Shown here one piece after another: positions 1 through 8,265 of a stretch of 64,000 bases of DNA. Positions within the stretch are counted from its first letter, which is position 1; each line of letters begins with the position of its first letter. The translations under genes were made by a program, and so were the position numbers. The notes beneath the pieces were generated by a model. The model was not told the DNA's origin and did not search any database. It saw only the letters and a list, made by a program, of their open reading frames with translations. Origin of the DNA: Methylococcales bacterium (GTDB lineage Bacteria > Pseudomonadota > Gammaproteobacteria > Methylococcales > Methylomonadaceae); NCBI GenBank assembly GCA_030654015.1, contig JAURYI010000123.1, positions 1 through 64,000 of the forward strand, in the 5' to 3' direction.

Positions 1-3000
1 GATGCTGATAGACCGCACGCAACTCTTTCGCCATAAATTTTTCCGCGCTTTCCAATTTGGTTTTATTGGGATCTCGCATATTGGAGATGTACATTTGCGG
101 GGCTTTGCCGTCTAAGTGCTGGACGGCAAGCGAAATGCCGCCCATAAATTCAAACGGATGGTCAGTATCCAGTAAGCCGCGTAAATTAGACGAACGCGAG
201 AACACCACCGCGCTAGTGCCTTTCAGCTGCGCCGCGTAGGTATTGACCTCTTTTCCAGCTGCATCTTGCAGTTTTTTGCTCCAGTTAGCAGGATTAGGTC
301 CGTAGCTCCATGACATTCTGTCCAAATACAGGTTTGCCAGTTTGCCGTCGTCTTTTTCCCATTTATCAGAAGCCAGCGTTGCTTTGGGTAATTTAGTGCC
401 GTATTCACCGCTTTGTTCGCCGAAAATGCGCGTCAGGGCAAATTCTTCCGCCTTGTTTTCCTCAATGCCTTGTTTGATAAAATCGGCTTTAATACGCTGG
501 GTATTAGCACGCACAAAATTGACGTTATCGGCTTCGTCCAGTTTAGCCACCATGACGATGGCTTCATTAAAGCGTTCCATGACATTGGGGAACTGGTCTC
601 GATATAATCCGTTGATGGAAATAATGGTATCTATGCGCGGTCTGCCCAATTCGGCTTGGGGAATGACTTCAATTCCCGTAACGCGCCCGCCTGCATCCCA
701 GACAGGTTTTACGCCCATTGCCGCCATAATCTGCGCTTCCAGCATTCCCATGTGGCGCATGGTTTCTGAGCTGAACATGGTGAACGTCAGTTTTTCGGGC
801 AGTTGACCTGCATGAGCTTGTTTATAATTGACAATCAGGTCTTCAATGGATTTTTTACCTGCGTCATAAGCGGCACGAGTCGGCACACGCGAGGGATCAA
901 AGCCGTACATATTGCGCCCTGTCGGTAATGAGTCGGGGTTACGAATGGGATCGCCGCCATAAGAAGGATTTATCCAGCGTGACGCTAACACCGCGCTCAC
1001 GCCTTCTATTTCATGTTTGGCGTATAAATCAATCAGGTATTTGCGCCCCAGTTCCATTTGAGTGCGCAGTTTTTCATCACTGAGTTCGGTTAATGGTTTA
1101 TCGGAAAATACCCATTCTTCAACAAATTGATAGGGTTTGGATTGTTGCAGTTGTTTGTAATCGGCTTGAAAAGTGGCTTTGGCATCAATACCCAAGGCTG
1201 CATAGTAAGGTTGCCCCAGCATCTGCATCACGTTACTGATTAAATGCCCGCGTTCGGCATCTTTGCCCAAGGTATGCAAACCCAAAGGCTGCATGGCTGA
1301 ACCCAGTTCTTCCAGATAATTTTCAATATCGCGTAACGACTCTTCAAAGTTAGCCGCCAAATTTTCAGGCGTGATTTTTAAATCCTTGGCGATATTCATT
1401 TTAATCGCTTGGTCGATAATGGATTGCCGACTGCTGATTTTCACAGGGCCGTCATCCAACGCACGGTATTCACGAATGGTGTCGTTAATGTTGACAAACT
1501 CATCCGATAAACCTGCGGGTGCAAACGCAGGGGTTTGATAACTGACAATTACCCCGCGTCCACGGCGTTTAACGTGTATGGCTTCGCTGATATTGTCAAT
1601 GATGTACGGGTAGATAACAGGCACATTGCCGACCAGCAAATTGGGGTAGTCGAATGCCCATAAGCCGCGCTCTTTACCTTGTGACCATTCTTGTGAGCCA
1701 TGGGTACCAAAGTGGATAATGGCATTGGCGGCGAATTGTTCACGAATCCACAAATAACCCGCCAGATACGAATGATTAAGCGGTAATTTGGTGTCATGAA
1801 ACATTTTTTTCTCATCTTCATCGGTCGCCATTTCACCACGAGCAGGTTGCGGCATCATCACTAAATTACCCAATTTCATACGCGGGATGACAAAACCGCG
1901 CACACCGTCTTTATCGGCTAACCATTTCGCTTTTTCAGGTTCGCCAAAGGCTTTATTAACGTCCGCTTGCACCGATTCAGGCAAGGTGGCAAACCATTTT
2001 TTGTAAGTGTCCAGCGGCAAAAAATCCCAATGCGGGGTTTTCATCAGCGCGTCTATTTCGCCGCGTCGATAACGCGGTCTGAGCATGGTGGCAACAGCAT
2101 CAATAATTTGCTGTTCGTTAGCTTTATCAAAGACATAACCTTCCGCGCGCAGTTGGTCAATCAGGTATTCAATCGAGCGCGGGACGTTCATATTGGACGC
2201 GCCCTGATTTTTTTCACCCGGGGGATGATTCCAGAATAACAGCGCGACTTTTTTATCGACATTTTTTAGCGTTTGTAATTTGGCAAGATTCATCGCTTTG
2301 CCCGTCAACAGTGCCATTTGTTCAGGCATCGGCACCATTTCGCCGCCTTCGTTAGCGGCTAATACCACAGGGTCTTGCAGTCCGATGTATTCGGCATTGG
2401 TGAGTGTGAACGGCAGATAAAAACTGCTGACACCTGCTAAATCTTGGTAATAATCAGCGCGTGTGCCTGTGCGATACGACAGGATATTAATGACAGGAAT
2501 GCCCATTGCTTGATGCCACGCTTTGCGACCATCGGGATTCATGCCTAAAAAAGTATTGACCATCAACACGTTGGCGATAATTTTGCCATCCATTGTTAAT
2601 AACGGCTCATTAACAGCAACACTTTGCGCGGCTTTGGGATTCGGAAAACCCCTGTCTGTTGCTGTTGTCGGTGCGGATTCAGGGCGACCGCGTGGTCTTT
2701 CGCCGCTGGGTGCAGCTTGCGCGCTACCGGCTTCTGGACGATCACTGCTCGCTGGCGCAGTCGGTCTGCCGCCTACTTTTTCGGCTTCGTTTCGACCGAC
2801 GCGGGTGGCACGATAAAAAATCAACGGTACACCGCCTGCTTTTTCAATACTATCAATGGTTTCGTCAAGCATCCGCAATTGACCATCGGAAATATGGCTG
2901 GAAGAGGACTCCATGGCAATCACGGGATTATTCTGCCATTTTTTACCCGTTTGCGTTTCCCACCATGTCAAATAAGCGGGCAGATTATCAAAAATCAACT

Positions 3001-3538
3001 CGGCAAATTTTGGGTGATAAATCCCGCCATTCGGCAATTTCATCGGCTCAGCAATTTTGCTGACATCACCGCCTGTCAGCAGGGCGTTTAAATACTGAAA
3101 TAATCGTTCATGATTAATCGGCGTACCACCTGCGTAATAATCAAACAAGCGTTCCGCCACCGCCGCCTCAAGATTGACAGGCTTAAGCCGATTGGGCGGA
3201 TTCATCATGTTAATACTCAGCGTAGGTAATGCGTTGTTAGTCATCGCTCCTGCACTGACACGCTCAATCAGCGTTATATCTTCATTACGCGGCGCGTCAA
3301 TAATCACCATAGTGGCATTTTCCAGCACCCGCTTCACGCCCGCTTCACCGTCGCGGTCAACCTGTGTCCACGCCAGTGCAACACCTTGTTTTTTGGCGGC
3401 CTGCTCCATGAGCTTGAATTTTTGTTCCAGCACAAACTGCGTGGATAACAGACCGATTTTAACTTGCGCGGCGGCGGGCATTGCCGCCGACACCCAAAAA
3501 ATAAGCCATAACAGATTAATTGAATTAAATTGCTTCAT
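1..3538 (-). CDS. CobN-like cobaltochelatase / Mg-chelatase H family protein with N-terminal signal peptide (partial, runs off left edge)
   Basis: Not in the ORF track because it has no stop inside the window. Reverse-strand frame from ATG at 3538 (MKQFNSINLLWLIFWVSAAMPAAAQVKIGLLSTQFVLEQKF...) is in the same frame at position 4. CobN-type segments read: IIHFGTHGSQEWSQGKERGLWAFDYPNLLVGNVPVIYPYIIDNISEAIHVKRRGRGVIVSYQTP and SRSSNLRGLLDTDHPFEFMGGISLAVQHLDG. Confidence 0.85.
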   Translation of the reverse strand, partial: MKQFNSINLLWLIFWVSAAMPAAAQVKIGLLSTQFVLEQKFKLMEQAAKKQGVALAWTQVDRDGEAGVKRVLENATMVIIDAPRNEDITLIERVSAGAMTNNALPTLSINMMNPPNRLKPVNLEAAVAERLFDYYAGGTPINHERLFQYLNALLTGGDVSKIAEPMKLPNGGIYHPKFAELIFDNLPAYLTWWETQTGKKWQNNPVIAMESSSSHISDGQLRMLDETIDSIEKAGGVPLIFYRATRVGRNEAEKVGGRPTAPASSDRPEAGSAQAAPSGERPRGRPESAPTTATDRGFPNPKAAQSVAVNEPLLTMDGKIIANVLMVNTFLGMNPDGRKAWHQAMGIPVINILSYRTGTRADYYQDLAGVSSFYLPFTLTNAEYIGLQDPVVLAANEGGEMVPMPEQMALLTGKAMNLAKLQTLKNVDKKVALLFWNHPPGEKNQGASNMNVPRSIEYLIDQLRAEGYVFDKANEQQIIDAVATMLRPRYRRGEIDALMKTPHWDFLPLDTYKKWFATLPESVQADVNKAFGEPEKAKWLADKDGVRGFVIPRMKLGNLVMMPQPARGEMATDEDEKKMFHDTKLPLNHSYLAGYLWIREQFAANAIIHFGTHGSQEWSQGKERGLWAFDYPNLLVGNVPVIYPYIIDNISEAIHVKRRGRGVIVSYQTPAFAPAGLSDEFVNINDTIREYRALDDGPVKISSRQSIIDQAIKMNIAKDLKITPENLAANFEESLRDIENYLEELGSAMQPLGLHTLGKDAERGHLISNVMQMLGQPYYAALGIDAKATFQADYKQLQQSKPYQFVEEWVFSDKPLTELSDEKLRTQMELGRKYLIDLYAKHEIEGVSAVLASRWINPSYGGDPIRNPDSLPTGRNMYGFDPSRVPTRAAYDAGKKSIEDLIVNYKQAHAGQLPEKLTFTMFSSETMRHMGMLEAQIMAAMGVKPVWDAGGRVTGIEVIPQAELGRPRIDTIISINGLYRDQFPNVMERFNEAIVMVAKLDEADNVNFVRANTQRIKADFIKQGIEENKAEEFALTRIFGEQSGEYGTKLPKATLASDKWEKDDGKLANLYLDRMSWSYGPNPANWSKKLQDAAGKEVNTYAAQLKGTSAVVFSRSSNLRGLLDTDHPFEFMGGISLAVQHLDGKAPQMYISNMRDPNKTKLESAEKFMAKELRAVYQH

Positions 3539-3605
3539 AGCGATATTTTTATGTTGAATAATTTAGAAACAAAGTAGCTGCGGATTTATCGCATCGACCT
3601 GTGTT

Positions 3606-4349
3606 TTAAGCGTCTAAACGAGCCGCTGCCGTATTCCAATTAAGTAACTTATCAATCACTGCCTGTAAATAATCTTTGCGAAGATTTTGGTAATCCAGAT
3701 AATAGGCGTGTTCATAAATATCAATGGTCAGTAGCGGTTTTAAGCCGTGTATCTCAGGATTATCAAGGTTATTGAGCGTCATCATGTTAAGTTTACCCTT
3801 ATGTTCAACCAGCCAGAGATAGCCTGAACCCGTATGGGCAACGCCCAGATCACGAAACTTGGTTTTAAAGGTCGCGTAATCGCCAAAAGCAGTGTCTATC
3901 AAGGTGAGTAATTTTCCAGTCGGTTTCACCGCGTCGCCGCCATTCGGCATCATGCTGCCCCAATAAAAATCATGGTTGACCACAGACGCTGCACCGTTAA
4001 ACACTTTGTTCATGGCGGGTTTATTGGCGGTGGCACGCATGATTGCATTTATGCTTTTACCCATATACTGACTGTTTTCAGGCAGACGCAGCGCGTCATT
4101 GAGACTTTTTAACGCACCCAGCTGGTGTTTGTTGTAATGAAAGCCAACCGTTCTCGCGCTGATGATAGGTTCAAGAGCCGCTTCGGCATAAGGCAGTGGC
4201 GGGGCAGGGAAAACGGGTGCCGCCTCAGGGATAACAGCAGGTGCATCTGCTGCTATCACCAAACGAGAGCCGCCCAGTGCAATAGTCGCGACGGTCGCAC
4301 TGGCAATACTGGCAGCGGTTAAAAATTTTCTACGCGATATTTCGGTCAT
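3606..4349 (-). CDS. Tat-exported Fe/Mn superoxide dismutase-like protein with altered second-sphere residues
   Basis: N-terminal twin-arginine motif SRRKFLTAASIASATVATIALGG; SOD-fold motifs FHYNKHQ, VNHDFYWGSM, DIYEHAYYLDYQNLRKDYL. Confidence 0.85.
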   Translation of the reverse strand: MTEISRRKFLTAASIASATVATIALGGSRLVIAADAPAVIPEAAPVFPAPPLPYAEAALEPIISARTVGFHYNKHQLGALKSLNDALRLPENSQYMGKSINAIMRATANKPAMNKVFNGAASVVNHDFYWGSMMPNGGDAVKPTGKLLTLIDTAFGDYATFKTKFRDLGVAHTGSGYLWLVEHKGKLNMMTLNNLDNPEIHGLKPLLTIDIYEHAYYLDYQNLRKDYLQAVIDKLLNWNTAAARLDA

Positions 4350-4407
4350 TAAAGAATCCTTTTAGTGGGGTGTGTTTAAAGTGAAAGACAAACTTTATAA
4401 AACGTCA

Positions 4408-5682
4408 TTAAATGCTTTTTAAACGGGCATCATGAATACGTTTCGCTTTGCGTTTTTTCAGCCACTGAATAATGCCTGTTACCATCAACAGTAACGGCGC
4501 GAAACCTGTAATCAACACCATGATGCGTCCTGTAGTGCCGAGAATTTCGCCGTTGTGCAAGGGCAGTTGCAGGTTCACAAACGCAGTACCCGCATTAAAT
4601 TTAAACGGGTCGCGGACTTGCAGGAATTTACCGCTGTATTGATCCACCCAGATATTGGTCGCGCCTTTACTGCGAATTTCACCGACTTGCCGTCCAGTCA
4701 CGCGAATGCTGTCATCGGCTTTTTTCGCCAGCACTAAACGCTGAATGTCGATATTGGGATAAGCCGCTTCAACTGCCAGAACAATGGCTTCGGGCGATAG
4801 CGGTGCCGCCCCGTTAGCGGGTGCGGATTTTGTTCTTGCATTCATTTGCATCATCGCCGCCATGCCTGTCATGTTGTCCAGTGGCGAGAAATAATTCACA
4901 ACAGGCTTAAAAACTTCGGGCAGATTGAAATACACACCAGAAAATGCAACCACCATCAGAACAACAGCGGTATAAATCCCCACCGTTTTATGCAGGTCAA
5001 TGTTAAAGCGGGTAAAACTGGCATTTTTCTTAATGGTAAACGCTTGTTTGATTTTGCTTAATTTCGGCCACCACAAATAAATGCCCGTCATTGTCAGCAC
5101 CAAAGTCAGTAATGCTGTGATGCCCATAATCAATTTACCCGTATCATCGAGTAGCAGGTTGGCGTGCAGTAGCAATACGATGGTCATTAACGAATCATTT
5201 CTGACGCGGTCGCCTAACACCTGTCCTGTATACGGATTCACCATGACTTCGTGTAAGGGGGCGTGCATCATTTTATGTTCTTTACCGTCGTGTGCTTTGT
5301 GTTCCATCGGCACTTCGTAGCGAACAAGCAACACATCATCCGCGTCTTCGGGTAACTGCATATTAGTCGCAGGAGCTTTGATGGGCGATCCCTGATTGGC
5401 AGCCGCTATCAGCATTGACAAAGGCAGGTGTTGTTGCCCTGCTTCGACCTGCATGATGTCGGAATTAAGCCATTTGTCGATAGCGTGATCGTAAACCAGC
5501 AAGCTGCCTGTCAGACCTGCCATGACCAGAAATGCACCCAGCCAAAGGGTGATATAGAGATGCAGTTTTAACAGCACTTTGCGCAAGGTGATTTTTTTTA
5601 GTGCCGCTAGTATTTTTGCAGGATGTTTGCCTGTTACGCGAGCAGGCTCAGCGATAGGTGATAATGGATCAATGGTTGACAT
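4408..5682 (-). CDS. PepSY-associated TM helix family protein
   Basis: ORF 4408..5745; ATG at 5682 has a good upstream AGGAG (MSTIDPLSPIAEPARV...). PepSY-TM architecture: LHLYITLWLGAFLVMAGLTGSLLVYDHAIDKWLN, DLHKTVGIYTAVVLMVVAFSGVYFNLPEVF, C-terminal LPLHNGEILGTTGRIMVLITGFAPLLLMVTGIIQWLKKRKAKR. Confidence 0.85.
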   Translation of the reverse strand: MSTIDPLSPIAEPARVTGKHPAKILAALKKITLRKVLLKLHLYITLWLGAFLVMAGLTGSLLVYDHAIDKWLNSDIMQVEAGQQHLPLSMLIAAANQGSPIKAPATNMQLPEDADDVLLVRYEVPMEHKAHDGKEHKMMHAPLHEVMVNPYTGQVLGDRVRNDSLMTIVLLLHANLLLDDTGKLIMGITALLTLVLTMTGIYLWWPKLSKIKQAFTIKKNASFTRFNIDLHKTVGIYTAVVLMVVAFSGVYFNLPEVFKPVVNYFSPLDNMTGMAAMMQMNARTKSAPANGAAPLSPEAIVLAVEAAYPNIDIQRLVLAKKADDSIRVTGRQVGEIRSKGATNIWVDQYSGKFLQVRDPFKFNAGTAFVNLQLPLHNGEILGTTGRIMVLITGFAPLLLMVTGIIQWLKKRKAKRIHDARLKSI

Positions 5683-5766
5683 ATTCTTTACTCCTGAGTT
5701 GTTGCTTTTGAATAAATACTTAAAAATCCGTTCAAGCTGTGACACCTGAAAGGTCGTGGCAAAGCG

Positions 5767-8118
5767 TTAATAGTTGTATTCGACACCTGCGCGGATTTGG
5801 AACGGACTGTCGCTGATGCCCGCAATTCCTAAATAGGTTTGGGTGTTGTTGGCATTGGAGGTGACGCGCGAGCTGTATTTGGTGTTTAACAAATTGAGGG
5901 CTTGCAGTGATACTGTCCAGTTTTGGTATTGATAGCTGCTGCGTAAATTAAACAGCATGGGGCGTGAGTAGCTGTTGGTATTTTGGATGTTGGTTTGGTA
6001 ACGGCTTAGGTAGTCGGCTTCCAGTTCTACGCTTAAGTTTTTAACCGGATAAACGGTAACCCGTCCATTAACGTGATGTTTCGGTGCGCCGATCATGCTC
6101 ACGCCGCTTAATTTCACCGCACCTGCATTGAAGTTGTTCCAGAAGTTAAAGTTTAACGTATGTGCCACGTCAAACTTGATCATGTCATGCGGTTGGTAGG
6201 ATAGGCTGGTCTCAAAACCGCGTATGGTGACTTTACCGGGATTGCCTGAGTAAGAAGCGGTGGTTTTGGCGGCATTGGCGGTTCTAACACCGCGTGTCAC
6301 AATGGTATCAGGTAATCTCGACCATGCCGCACCGCACACCGAGGGGTTATCACTACACAATACGCTCGCGATGTAGTCATCTGTATTGGTTTCAAAGGCT
6401 GCTACGTCGTAGCTGAAGCCTTGGTCACGGAAAAAGCCGCGCAAGCCCAGTTGTTTGGTAATACTGGATTCAGGTTTTACGTTGTTATTAGGATAAATGG
6501 CAGTCACGTTGCTGCTCGCTCCCGGCACTAACCAGCCGTCAGCAACACCAAACCATAGCGTGTGGTCATGAACATATTCATAACTCAAGCCGCCTTTTTT
6601 AATCAGTTTGTTGTATTCCTGACGCTGGCTGCTCAGTGCGCCGCCTCTTGCATCGAAAGTTTGTGTGAAACGTTGTTGAATATCTTCGTAACGCAAGCCG
6701 AAGTTAAAACGTAAATTGTCCAGCGAAGATAAAAAGCCGCTGTTAAACAGACCGTTCATCGGTGAAAATTCGTACTGCATAAACGGCGCGATTTGCGTTT
6801 CGTTAAACAAACTGGCGGAGGCTTTATTGGTTGCCGCAAGACCGTTCGTCGTGCGATTCCAGATTTCAACATCCTGATAGCCGTTAAGTACGTCTACGCC
6901 GGTATAAACGCGCGATTTGATAAAATCAAAATCTTGGCGATACACGGTGTGCGCGTTGTTTTGTCCCGTATCAACGTGTTGTTCTGTTAAACCCGTAGCA
7001 CCGCCGCCGCCGCCCGGAAAAGCATCTGTGCCGCGTCTATCACGTTTGGAAAATGACACTTCTAATTCGCCGCCGTCACCGATTTGCCGTTTATAGGAGG
7101 CAAGCCCTGAGACGTATTTAAACTGTTGATATAAATTAGGTGTGGCAGGATTAACTTGTTCCCAGTTATCCACCCATTGTTGACGGCTAAGACTGCCCGC
7201 ATTTTCCTGATACCAGTCGGTGTAATCAAAGCGCAGGGTGAGTTTTGATACATCATCAGGGTGTAAAACAATTTTGCCCGTACCCGAAAGTCGTTCTGAT
7301 TTGCTGCGGTCGCGCCACGGATTGTATTTCAGCGCACTGACAGCGGCAAAATAGCCGATGTCATTGATAGCAGTGTCTTTGAGTGTGCCGCTGGCTGAAC
7401 CTTGGGTACGAAAATAATCATAAGAGCCGATTTCTTGTGATAGCGAATATTCTGGATGATCAGTGGGGTCTTTGGTGATGATATTAATCGTGCCGCCAAT
7501 CGCGTTGCTGGGGAATAACACCGAGGCAGGGCCGCGTATCACTTCCATTGCGGCAATTTCTTTGGGATTGATAGTATCAGTGTTGTTGGTGGTGTTGCCA
7601 TTAGAGGGCGAACCGACCATAAAACCATCCACTGCGCCATTGGTGTAAGATTTGCCGCCGTCGGCTATACGGATATTGCGCTGCATACTGACCCCTGGAA
7701 TACGTGCTAACTGCTCACGCAAAAGATCGACGTATTTCACTGTTTGCAGTTCCTGCTGATCAATAATGCTCCCTGCCAGCGGGGTGGTTTTAGTCAAACG
7801 TCCTAACTCGGTTCTTTTCTGCACGGGTATCGCATCGGTGTCTTCCGTCAGCCAGTTATCAATGTGCAATTGTTTATCAGAAACCGTCATTTCATTGAGT
7901 GCAGTAATCCGTTCTTCACTACTGGGTACATTCCGCGTTGCCGACGTTTTCGATTTTGCTGTTTTTGAATCTGATTTTTTAACCGTTTCAGCAGTCACTG
8001 GCGTTGTCATCGACAGAGCCAATGTAGGAACAGCTAACGCAATAACGGCAGCTTTAGTTAAATGATGTTTCGCGCTCTCTCTATTTAGTATGGAATGTTT
8101 ACAATTAATCACTAACAA
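5767..8118 (-). CDS. TonB-dependent receptor
   Basis: Plug motif (AAMEVIRGPASVLFPSNAIGGTINIITKDP), beta-barrel repeats, C-terminal aromatic end (FQIRAGVEYNY). Start codon ambiguous (TTG/GTG after AGGAG). Confidence 0.92.
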   Translation of the reverse strand: MLVINCKHSILNRESAKHHLTKAAVIALAVPTLALSMTTPVTAETVKKSDSKTAKSKTSATRNVPSSEERITALNEMTVSDKQLHIDNWLTEDTDAIPVQKRTELGRLTKTTPLAGSIIDQQELQTVKYVDLLREQLARIPGVSMQRNIRIADGGKSYTNGAVDGFMVGSPSNGNTTNNTDTINPKEIAAMEVIRGPASVLFPSNAIGGTINIITKDPTDHPEYSLSQEIGSYDYFRTQGSASGTLKDTAINDIGYFAAVSALKYNPWRDRSKSERLSGTGKIVLHPDDVSKLTLRFDYTDWYQENAGSLSRQQWVDNWEQVNPATPNLYQQFKYVSGLASYKRQIGDGGELEVSFSKRDRRGTDAFPGGGGGATGLTEQHVDTGQNNAHTVYRQDFDFIKSRVYTGVDVLNGYQDVEIWNRTTNGLAATNKASASLFNETQIAPFMQYEFSPMNGLFNSGFLSSLDNLRFNFGLRYEDIQQRFTQTFDARGGALSSQRQEYNKLIKKGGLSYEYVHDHTLWFGVADGWLVPGASSNVTAIYPNNNVKPESSITKQLGLRGFFRDQGFSYDVAAFETNTDDYIASVLCSDNPSVCGAAWSRLPDTIVTRGVRTANAAKTTASYSGNPGKVTIRGFETSLSYQPHDMIKFDVAHTLNFNFWNNFNAGAVKLSGVSMIGAPKHHVNGRVTVYPVKNLSVELEADYLSRYQTNIQNTNSYSRPMLFNLRSSYQYQNWTVSLQALNLLNTKYSSRVTSNANNTQTYLGIAGISDSPFQIRAGVEYNY

Positions 8119-8245: not shown

Positions 8246-8265
8246 AACAGGTTAAATAACCTGTT
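8246..8265. promoter_or_regulatory. Perfect inverted repeat aacaggtta-aa-taacctgtt upstream of the TonB operon; candidate operator (or a weak terminator)
   Basis: 9-bp perfect arms around a 2-nt centre, in the divergent intergenic region 8119-8418. Confidence 0.35.

Follow-up and report, generated by a model that had tools for sequence, protein, structure and literature searches.

A TonB-linked operon of a Methylococcales bacterium encodes an exported CobN/HmuS-superfamily protein, a candidate periplasmic (de)chelatase

CobN-superfamily proteins are encoded next to TonB-dependent receptors in two known systems. In the hmuYRSTUV operon of Bacteroides thetaiotaomicron, the protein HmuS (PDB 9d26) uses His538, which faces His1209 held by Glu1212, for iron removal from haem, and turnover was abolished in the H538A mutant (PMC12583661). 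The Zur-controlled genes PA1922-1925 of Pseudomonas aeruginosa encode a receptor, a CobN-like, an ExbD-annotated and a hypothetical protein, and are thought to import zinc (PMC4542158). Here we analyze a stretch of 64,000 nucleotides (the window) from a Methylococcales bacterium (contig JAURYI010000123.1, referred to as C81), in which positions 2-8112 of the minus strand encode a TonB-dependent receptor, a PepSY-TM protein, a superoxide dismutase (SOD)-fold protein exported by twin-arginine translocation (Tat), and a CobN-family protein. Open reading frames and Pfam matches, all well above cut-off (CobN-Mg_chel, 827 bits; PepSY_TM, 222 bits; Sod_Fe_N/C; TonB_dep_Rec and Plug), confirm the four genes listed in a preliminary description of this DNA. 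The operon belongs to the known HmuS/PA1923-type systems, among which it is a variant with PepSY-TM and SOD-fold genes. We see about an even chance that it serves TonB-dependent metal acquisition with a periplasmic, membrane-anchored chelatase or dechelatase of the CobN/HmuS superfamily.

Relatives of the CobN-like protein were divided by motif into a DH class, which has DHxFE as in the window, and a PA1923-like DD class with DDxxQ. Of the DH-class relatives, 44 of 46 have a hydrophobic N-terminus and 43 of 46 a membrane segment at the C-terminus; in the DD class both counts are 43 of 45. Among 19 cytoplasmic CobN proteins the respective counts are 1 and 0. Both segments occur in all three Bacteroidota HmuS rows and neither in five BchH proteins. 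The window protein possesses the two, its C-terminus being encoded on another contig, C112. The signal peptide noted previously is hence real, family-wide and accompanied by a membrane segment at the opposite end, and its sequence marks the protein as exported and anchored in the membrane. Two trees, of 56 and 40 rows, were built, with support as Shimodaira-Hasegawa-like approximate likelihood ratio values from quick searches. One branch sets apart the exported proteins other than the Bacteroidota HmuS group (97 and 98, respectively), and another sets apart these proteins plus HmuS (99). A tree forcing the exported proteins together with cytoplasmic CobN was rejected by the approximately unbiased test (p-AU 0.005), which bears out the earlier suspicion that the window protein lies outside cytoplasmic CobN.

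The NCBIfam model NF004644, named "cobaltochelatase subunit CobN", matches the window protein with 1414 bits (cut-off 1248), which would fit a conventional CobN from aerobic cobalamin synthesis whose start was misread. However, in the genomes searched this cut-off was passed only by members of the exported family, for which the name is therefore probably misleading. CobT was not found in the genome, no B12-synthesis gene adjoins the operon, and an Rfam scan of the window and relatives returned no match and hence no cobalamin riboswitch, the single one of this genome being located on another contig upstream of a BtuB-like receptor. Riboswitch control and adjacent B12 genes, which the preliminary description considered capable of overturning its proposal, were thus both sought and absent. 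Taken with the rejected tree and the family-wide signal and anchor, these results lead us to reject a cytoplasmic CobN, an explanation that we regard as scarcely credible. The exported protein might also act as a chelatase that inserts metal into a scavenged tetrapyrrole in the periplasm, given that its relatives CobN and ChlH insert metals. This is very unlikely, since CobN and ChlH need ATP-driven partner subunits that would be out of reach in the periplasm, since receptor-linked import suits release better, and since the genome has neither CobT nor a ChlID-type partner (no TIGR02442 match over cut-off; CobS was not searched for). The window protein shares superfamily and predicted fold with cytoplasmic CobN and BchH/ChlH, class I chelatases that differ from it by their partner ATPases and by having neither signal nor anchor.

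HmuS is the best PDB sequence match of the CobN-like protein. The equivalent of its His538, His613 in an HFG(T/A)HG motif, is present and is conserved across the superfamily, and hence not HmuS-specific. The Asp1208-His1209-Glu1212 set is conserved as well, within DTDHPFEFMGG (residues 1124-1134), although the LSL part of the HmuS motif LSLDHxxEFMGG is not kept. DHxFE is constant within the window's class, whereas DDPFQ is the form of Pseudomonas-type relatives (a comparison based on sampled relatives, not on PA1923 itself), cytoplasmic CobN mostly has DDYYQ or DDYLQ (DDxxQ), and BchH may have the His but replaces Glu by Asp. These residues bear on a different proposal, namely that the CobN-like protein performs no chemistry and, with ExbB/DUF2149, relays a metal ion or an intact chelate across the periplasm from the receptor to an inner-membrane importer. 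Such a relay could hold for the zinc-associated PA1922-1925 and would agree with neighbor genes that vary by metal and with the DD-class locus L025, which has a His-rich insert, GQEFVDRAQSLEHHHSHSEGHHHTHAHNQESHQHITH, where HmuS has a Met-rich insertion; the insert may hint at zinc. For the window protein, a pure relay is disfavored by the invariant His538 equivalent and by the HmuS DHxxE set kept in its class, catalytic residues that a relay would not need, and we consider it doubtful though arguable.

The wider gene content is shared with the described systems. Among 85 related loci, the CobN-like gene is accompanied by a receptor in 80, by DUF2149 in 74 and by an ExbB-type gene in 65, and annotated hmu operons contain this same core set (receptor, CobN-like, MotA/ExbB, DUF2149). 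The window begins at one end of C81, so cobN is cut. The preliminary description had pointed to the sequence upstream of position 1 as a place to look for genes such as ExbBD/MotA, and this was located on contig C112 (L004), where positions 3-644 encode the last ~210 residues of the CobN-like protein and are followed by a MotA/TolQ/ExbB gene (794-1285) and a DUF2149 gene (1288-1626). The C81/C112 join is deduced from the continuity of the protein with full-length relatives (1375-1380 amino acids) and from synteny in the same-genus genome G002, where both flanks recur on a single contig, the left one being the fructosamine kinase side and the right one comprising genes judged by eye to encode cysteine synthase, glycogen phosphorylase and polyphosphate kinase. 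This genus takes in Crenothrix sp. D3, and the same CobN-like protein is carried by locus L051 and the same-genus genome G007. Export, anchor, TonB receptor, MotA/ExbB and DUF2149 are thus shared with hmuYRSTUV, but the window protein branches separately from HmuS and has PepSY-TM and SOD-fold genes beside it instead; no HmuY haemophore or HmuT gene lies between the window receptor and DUF2149. PA1922-1925 represents the same operon type, and the Pseudomonas CobN-like proteins fall into the same exported family.

The PepSY-TM protein matches PDB 7abw (E 2.8e-31), which we take to be the siderophore reductase FoxB, with two similar stretches covering most of the protein. This relationship points to a possible reductase role, the difference being that the window's PepSY-TM sits in a CobN-like operon. 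PepSY-TM genes were also found near exported CobN in Crenothrix sp. D3, in the Methylococcales genomes G009 and G043 and at loci L102, L067 and L069, a co-occurrence to be read with the caution that PepSY-TM is common near receptors generally. HmuS needs NADH, and its reductase is unknown (PMC12583661). At four loci (L052, L054, L057 and L084, three of them from Methylococcales), the place of PepSY-TM beside cobN is taken by a module of a DUF4198-like protein, a membrane polyferredoxin, an HGD-D protein, a BadF-type ATPase and a DsbD-like protein, which resembles a route that would carry low-potential electrons to the periplasm at the expense of ATP. HGD-D is present in 4 of 61 genomes (the window's and 60 relatives), and 3 of these are among the 5 with exported CobN (Fisher p 0.001, uncorrected for kinship). 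The window genome and G007 have no HGD-D, yet possess PepSY-TM upstream of cobN (adjoining it in G007, with the SOD gene between them in the window); the same-genus genome G006 shows the reverse, and there the HGD-D module comes after a receptor that shares 77% identity with that of the window. These three genomes suggest that PepSY-TM and the HGD-D module could be exchangeable reductants. The module also occurs elsewhere without exported CobN, and no link was seen beyond Methylococcales, as HGD-D was found in 4 of 369 Gammaproteobacteria, none with exported CobN. The module (L186 335-7548; L187 2666-9653; L188 5362-10221; L196 3581-10801; L084 3-5990; L195 3490-10853) usually stands beside a TonB-dependent receptor, with or without exported CobN, and no paper pairing "double-cubane" with "TonB-dependent" was found. 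EF-hand proteins together with sigma-factor-like genes are encoded near CobN or HGD-D loci at L174 9957-10619 (four EF hands by Pfam) and L187 631-1308 (read by eye).

The SOD-fold protein carries a Tat-type motif, SRRKFL, and retains all four metal ligands, His26, His73, Asp156 and His160 (E. coli SodB numbering); its closest iron SOD in the PDB is 6jov. The equivalents of the second-sphere residues Tyr34 and Gln69 and of Trp122 and Trp158 are replaced by Ala, Ser, Tyr and Tyr, respectively, and Leu occupies the place of Gln146, so that canonical SOD activity appears doubtful. Two E. coli sequences served as reference, and alignments with the genome's own SodB and with PDB entries agree. The replacements at Tyr34, Gln69 and Gln146 are common to G002, whereas the other Tat-SODs in the order keep Tyr34 and Gln69.

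Comparison with same-genus genomes bears on the unity of the operon. G002 retains the receptor (98% identity), a small CpxP-like protein, PepSY-TM (98%) and the SOD (97%), and between SOD and cysteine synthase (L165 6560-6880) it has a remnant, MMNPPNRLKPVNPEAA, that matches the window CobN from about residue 111, from which we infer that CobN-ExbB-DUF2149 was lost in G002 rather than gained in the window. Its retained genes, and the finding that SOD and a CobN locus occur together only in the window, would suit two independent systems on one transcript. In one, receptor-PepSY-SOD would take up a ferric chelate through reduction of the FoxB type, and in the other, CobN-ExbB-DUF2149 would serve another substrate. 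We consider this unlikely, as the receptor adjoins the CobN-like gene in nearly all of the 85 loci and as in G006 a receptor sharing 75% identity with that of the window stands immediately beside CobN, with neither PepSY nor SOD. A small secreted CpxP/LTXXQ-like protein follows the receptor in the same-genus genomes (L172 6665-7000 and 3252-3536; L173 6379-6693; L165 9335-9661) and is missing from the window operon.

If the operon acts as one dechelating system, the receptor (5767-8112) would bring in a complexed metal, with a metallo-tetrapyrrole or some other organic chelate as the likeliest cargo. The FoxB-related PepSY-TM would reduce that metal on the side of the inner membrane that faces the periplasm. 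The anchored CobN-like protein would then take the complex into its central cleft and release the metal, with His613 and His1127/Glu1130 acting where HmuS uses His538 and His1209/Glu1212. Together, the ExbB-type and DUF2149 proteins may act as a partner complex powered by protons, a role also proposed for HmuU/V. A different transporter would take up the freed metal. The Tat SOD-fold protein might conceivably bind metal or handle by-products.

Several observations weigh against this reading. The Met79/His254 axial haem site of HmuS is absent, with Pro83 and Leu331 in the window protein, as is the Met-rich insertion (70 residues with 1 Met, versus 238 with 30 Met in Prevotella HmuS), and several further cleft residues differ. 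The first two absences rule out HmuS proper; the HmuS-like exported (de)chelatase proposed earlier is partly supported, by export, hmu-type architecture and the DHxxE half of the HmuS active site, and the window protein is best described as HmuS-like rather than HmuS, any likeness in function drawing on part of the HmuS features. The AlphaFold model (mean predicted local distance difference test score 78; predicted template modeling score 0.67) matched HmuS, CobN and ChlH about equally and is not discriminating. PepSY-TM and SOD are not conserved partners of the CobN-like gene but lineage-specific additions rather than core parts, and G002 retains receptor-PepSY-SOD without the CobN genes. Finally, neighbor genes suggest different metals by lineage (Ni, Zn, Fe, Cu).

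The metal clues differ between the two classes. DUF2946, which has a weak link to copper, was found at 14/49 DH-class and 0/40 DD-class loci (p 0.0002), the copper chaperone PCuAC at 7/49 and 1/40 (p 0.07, not significant), and the haem-binding protein ChaN at 0/49 and 7/40 (p 0.003), many loci in these counts being from related Burkholderiales and not independent. These counts make copper a live option for the DH class, and for the operon haem iron and copper head the list of candidate metals. In an Azospirillum locus, an iron ATP-binding cassette transporter lies near the CobN-like gene. A CobN-like/ExbB/DUF2149 cluster of Runella (L141 5104-9138) is located among hypF, hypC, hypD, hypE and a gene for a urease-accessory-type protein, a hydrogenase-maturation setting that suggests nickel. 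Upstream of CobN in Methylotenera (L056 4849-5325), a small Cys-rich, signal-bearing protein (HEHHHQHGG, many CxxxC) has no Pfam match and by eye resembles a copper-storage protein. The window receptor gave no substrate call against PDB and NCBIfam, its best matches being weak (PqqU/YncD, PhuR). A consensus scan of ~85 receptor upstream regions for Fur, Zur and FNR sites found none in the window and almost none at DH-class loci, scattered Fur- and FNR-like sites being mostly of the DD class; upstream of the window operon, no Zur box scored above shuffles with a crude consensus rather than a genus-specific position weight matrix. A literature search for CobN in connection with Nitrosomonas, methanotrophs or PepSY yielded nothing direct; Nitrosomonas europaea carries the family.

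A further, speculative and rather improbable proposal is that periplasmic dechelatases of a second class exist in aerobic proteobacteria, with reduction coming first and proton-assisted metal release second. The reductant would be encoded alongside and be exchangeable between lineages: the window and Crenothrix sp. D3 would use a FoxB-like PepSY-TM, and Methylobacter-like relatives an HGD-D chain. The window SOD would have been remodeled into a periplasmic metal handler, and copper, a requirement of methane oxidation, could be the metal instead of haem iron.

Coordinates of the features are compiled in Table 1. For PepSY-TM, the start is the ATG at 5682, as in relatives, and not 5745; the receptor most likely starts at the GTG at 8112, as judged from the AGGAG six bases upstream and a start common to relatives. 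The inverted repeat AACAGGTTAAATAACCTGTT is nearly unchanged in G002 and G006, is not kept in Crenothrix sp. D3, and may be either an operator or a terminator. The window also contains ribulose monophosphate-type genes (read by eye), in agreement with a gammaproteobacterial methanotroph.

Table 1. Features of the operon and its upstream side in the window.
Feature	Position	Strand	Basis
CobN/HmuS-superfamily protein, first 1179 residues (open reading frame cut by contig end)	2..3538	-	Pfam, NCBIfam, open reading frame
DHPFE motif, residues 1126-1130; Asp1126/His1127/Glu1130 equal HmuS Asp1208/His1209/Glu1212	149..163	-	Alignment
HFGTHG motif, residues 609-614; His613 aligned to HmuS His538	1697..1714	-	Alignment
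Signal peptide MKQFNSINLLWLIFWVSAAMPAAAQ of the CobN-like protein	3464..3538	-	Sequence; hydrophobic N-terminus family-wide
Fe/Mn-SOD-fold protein with Tat signal	3606..4349	-	Pfam, alignment
PepSY-TM inner-membrane protein, 424 amino acids, relative of PDB 7abw	4408..5682	-	Pfam, PDB match
TonB-dependent receptor, plug and barrel, GTG start after AGGAG	5767..8112	-	Pfam, relatives
Inverted repeat AACAGGTTAAATAACCTGTT, operon upstream side	8246..8265	no strand	Sequence, relatives

The loci described here give concrete candidates, encoded beside the gene itself, for the electron supply to a periplasmic dechelatase. The results also suggest that many proteobacterial proteins annotated as "cobaltochelatase subunit CobN" would be exported metal-acquisition proteins, and the loci open a route for testing copper or iron supply in methanotrophs.

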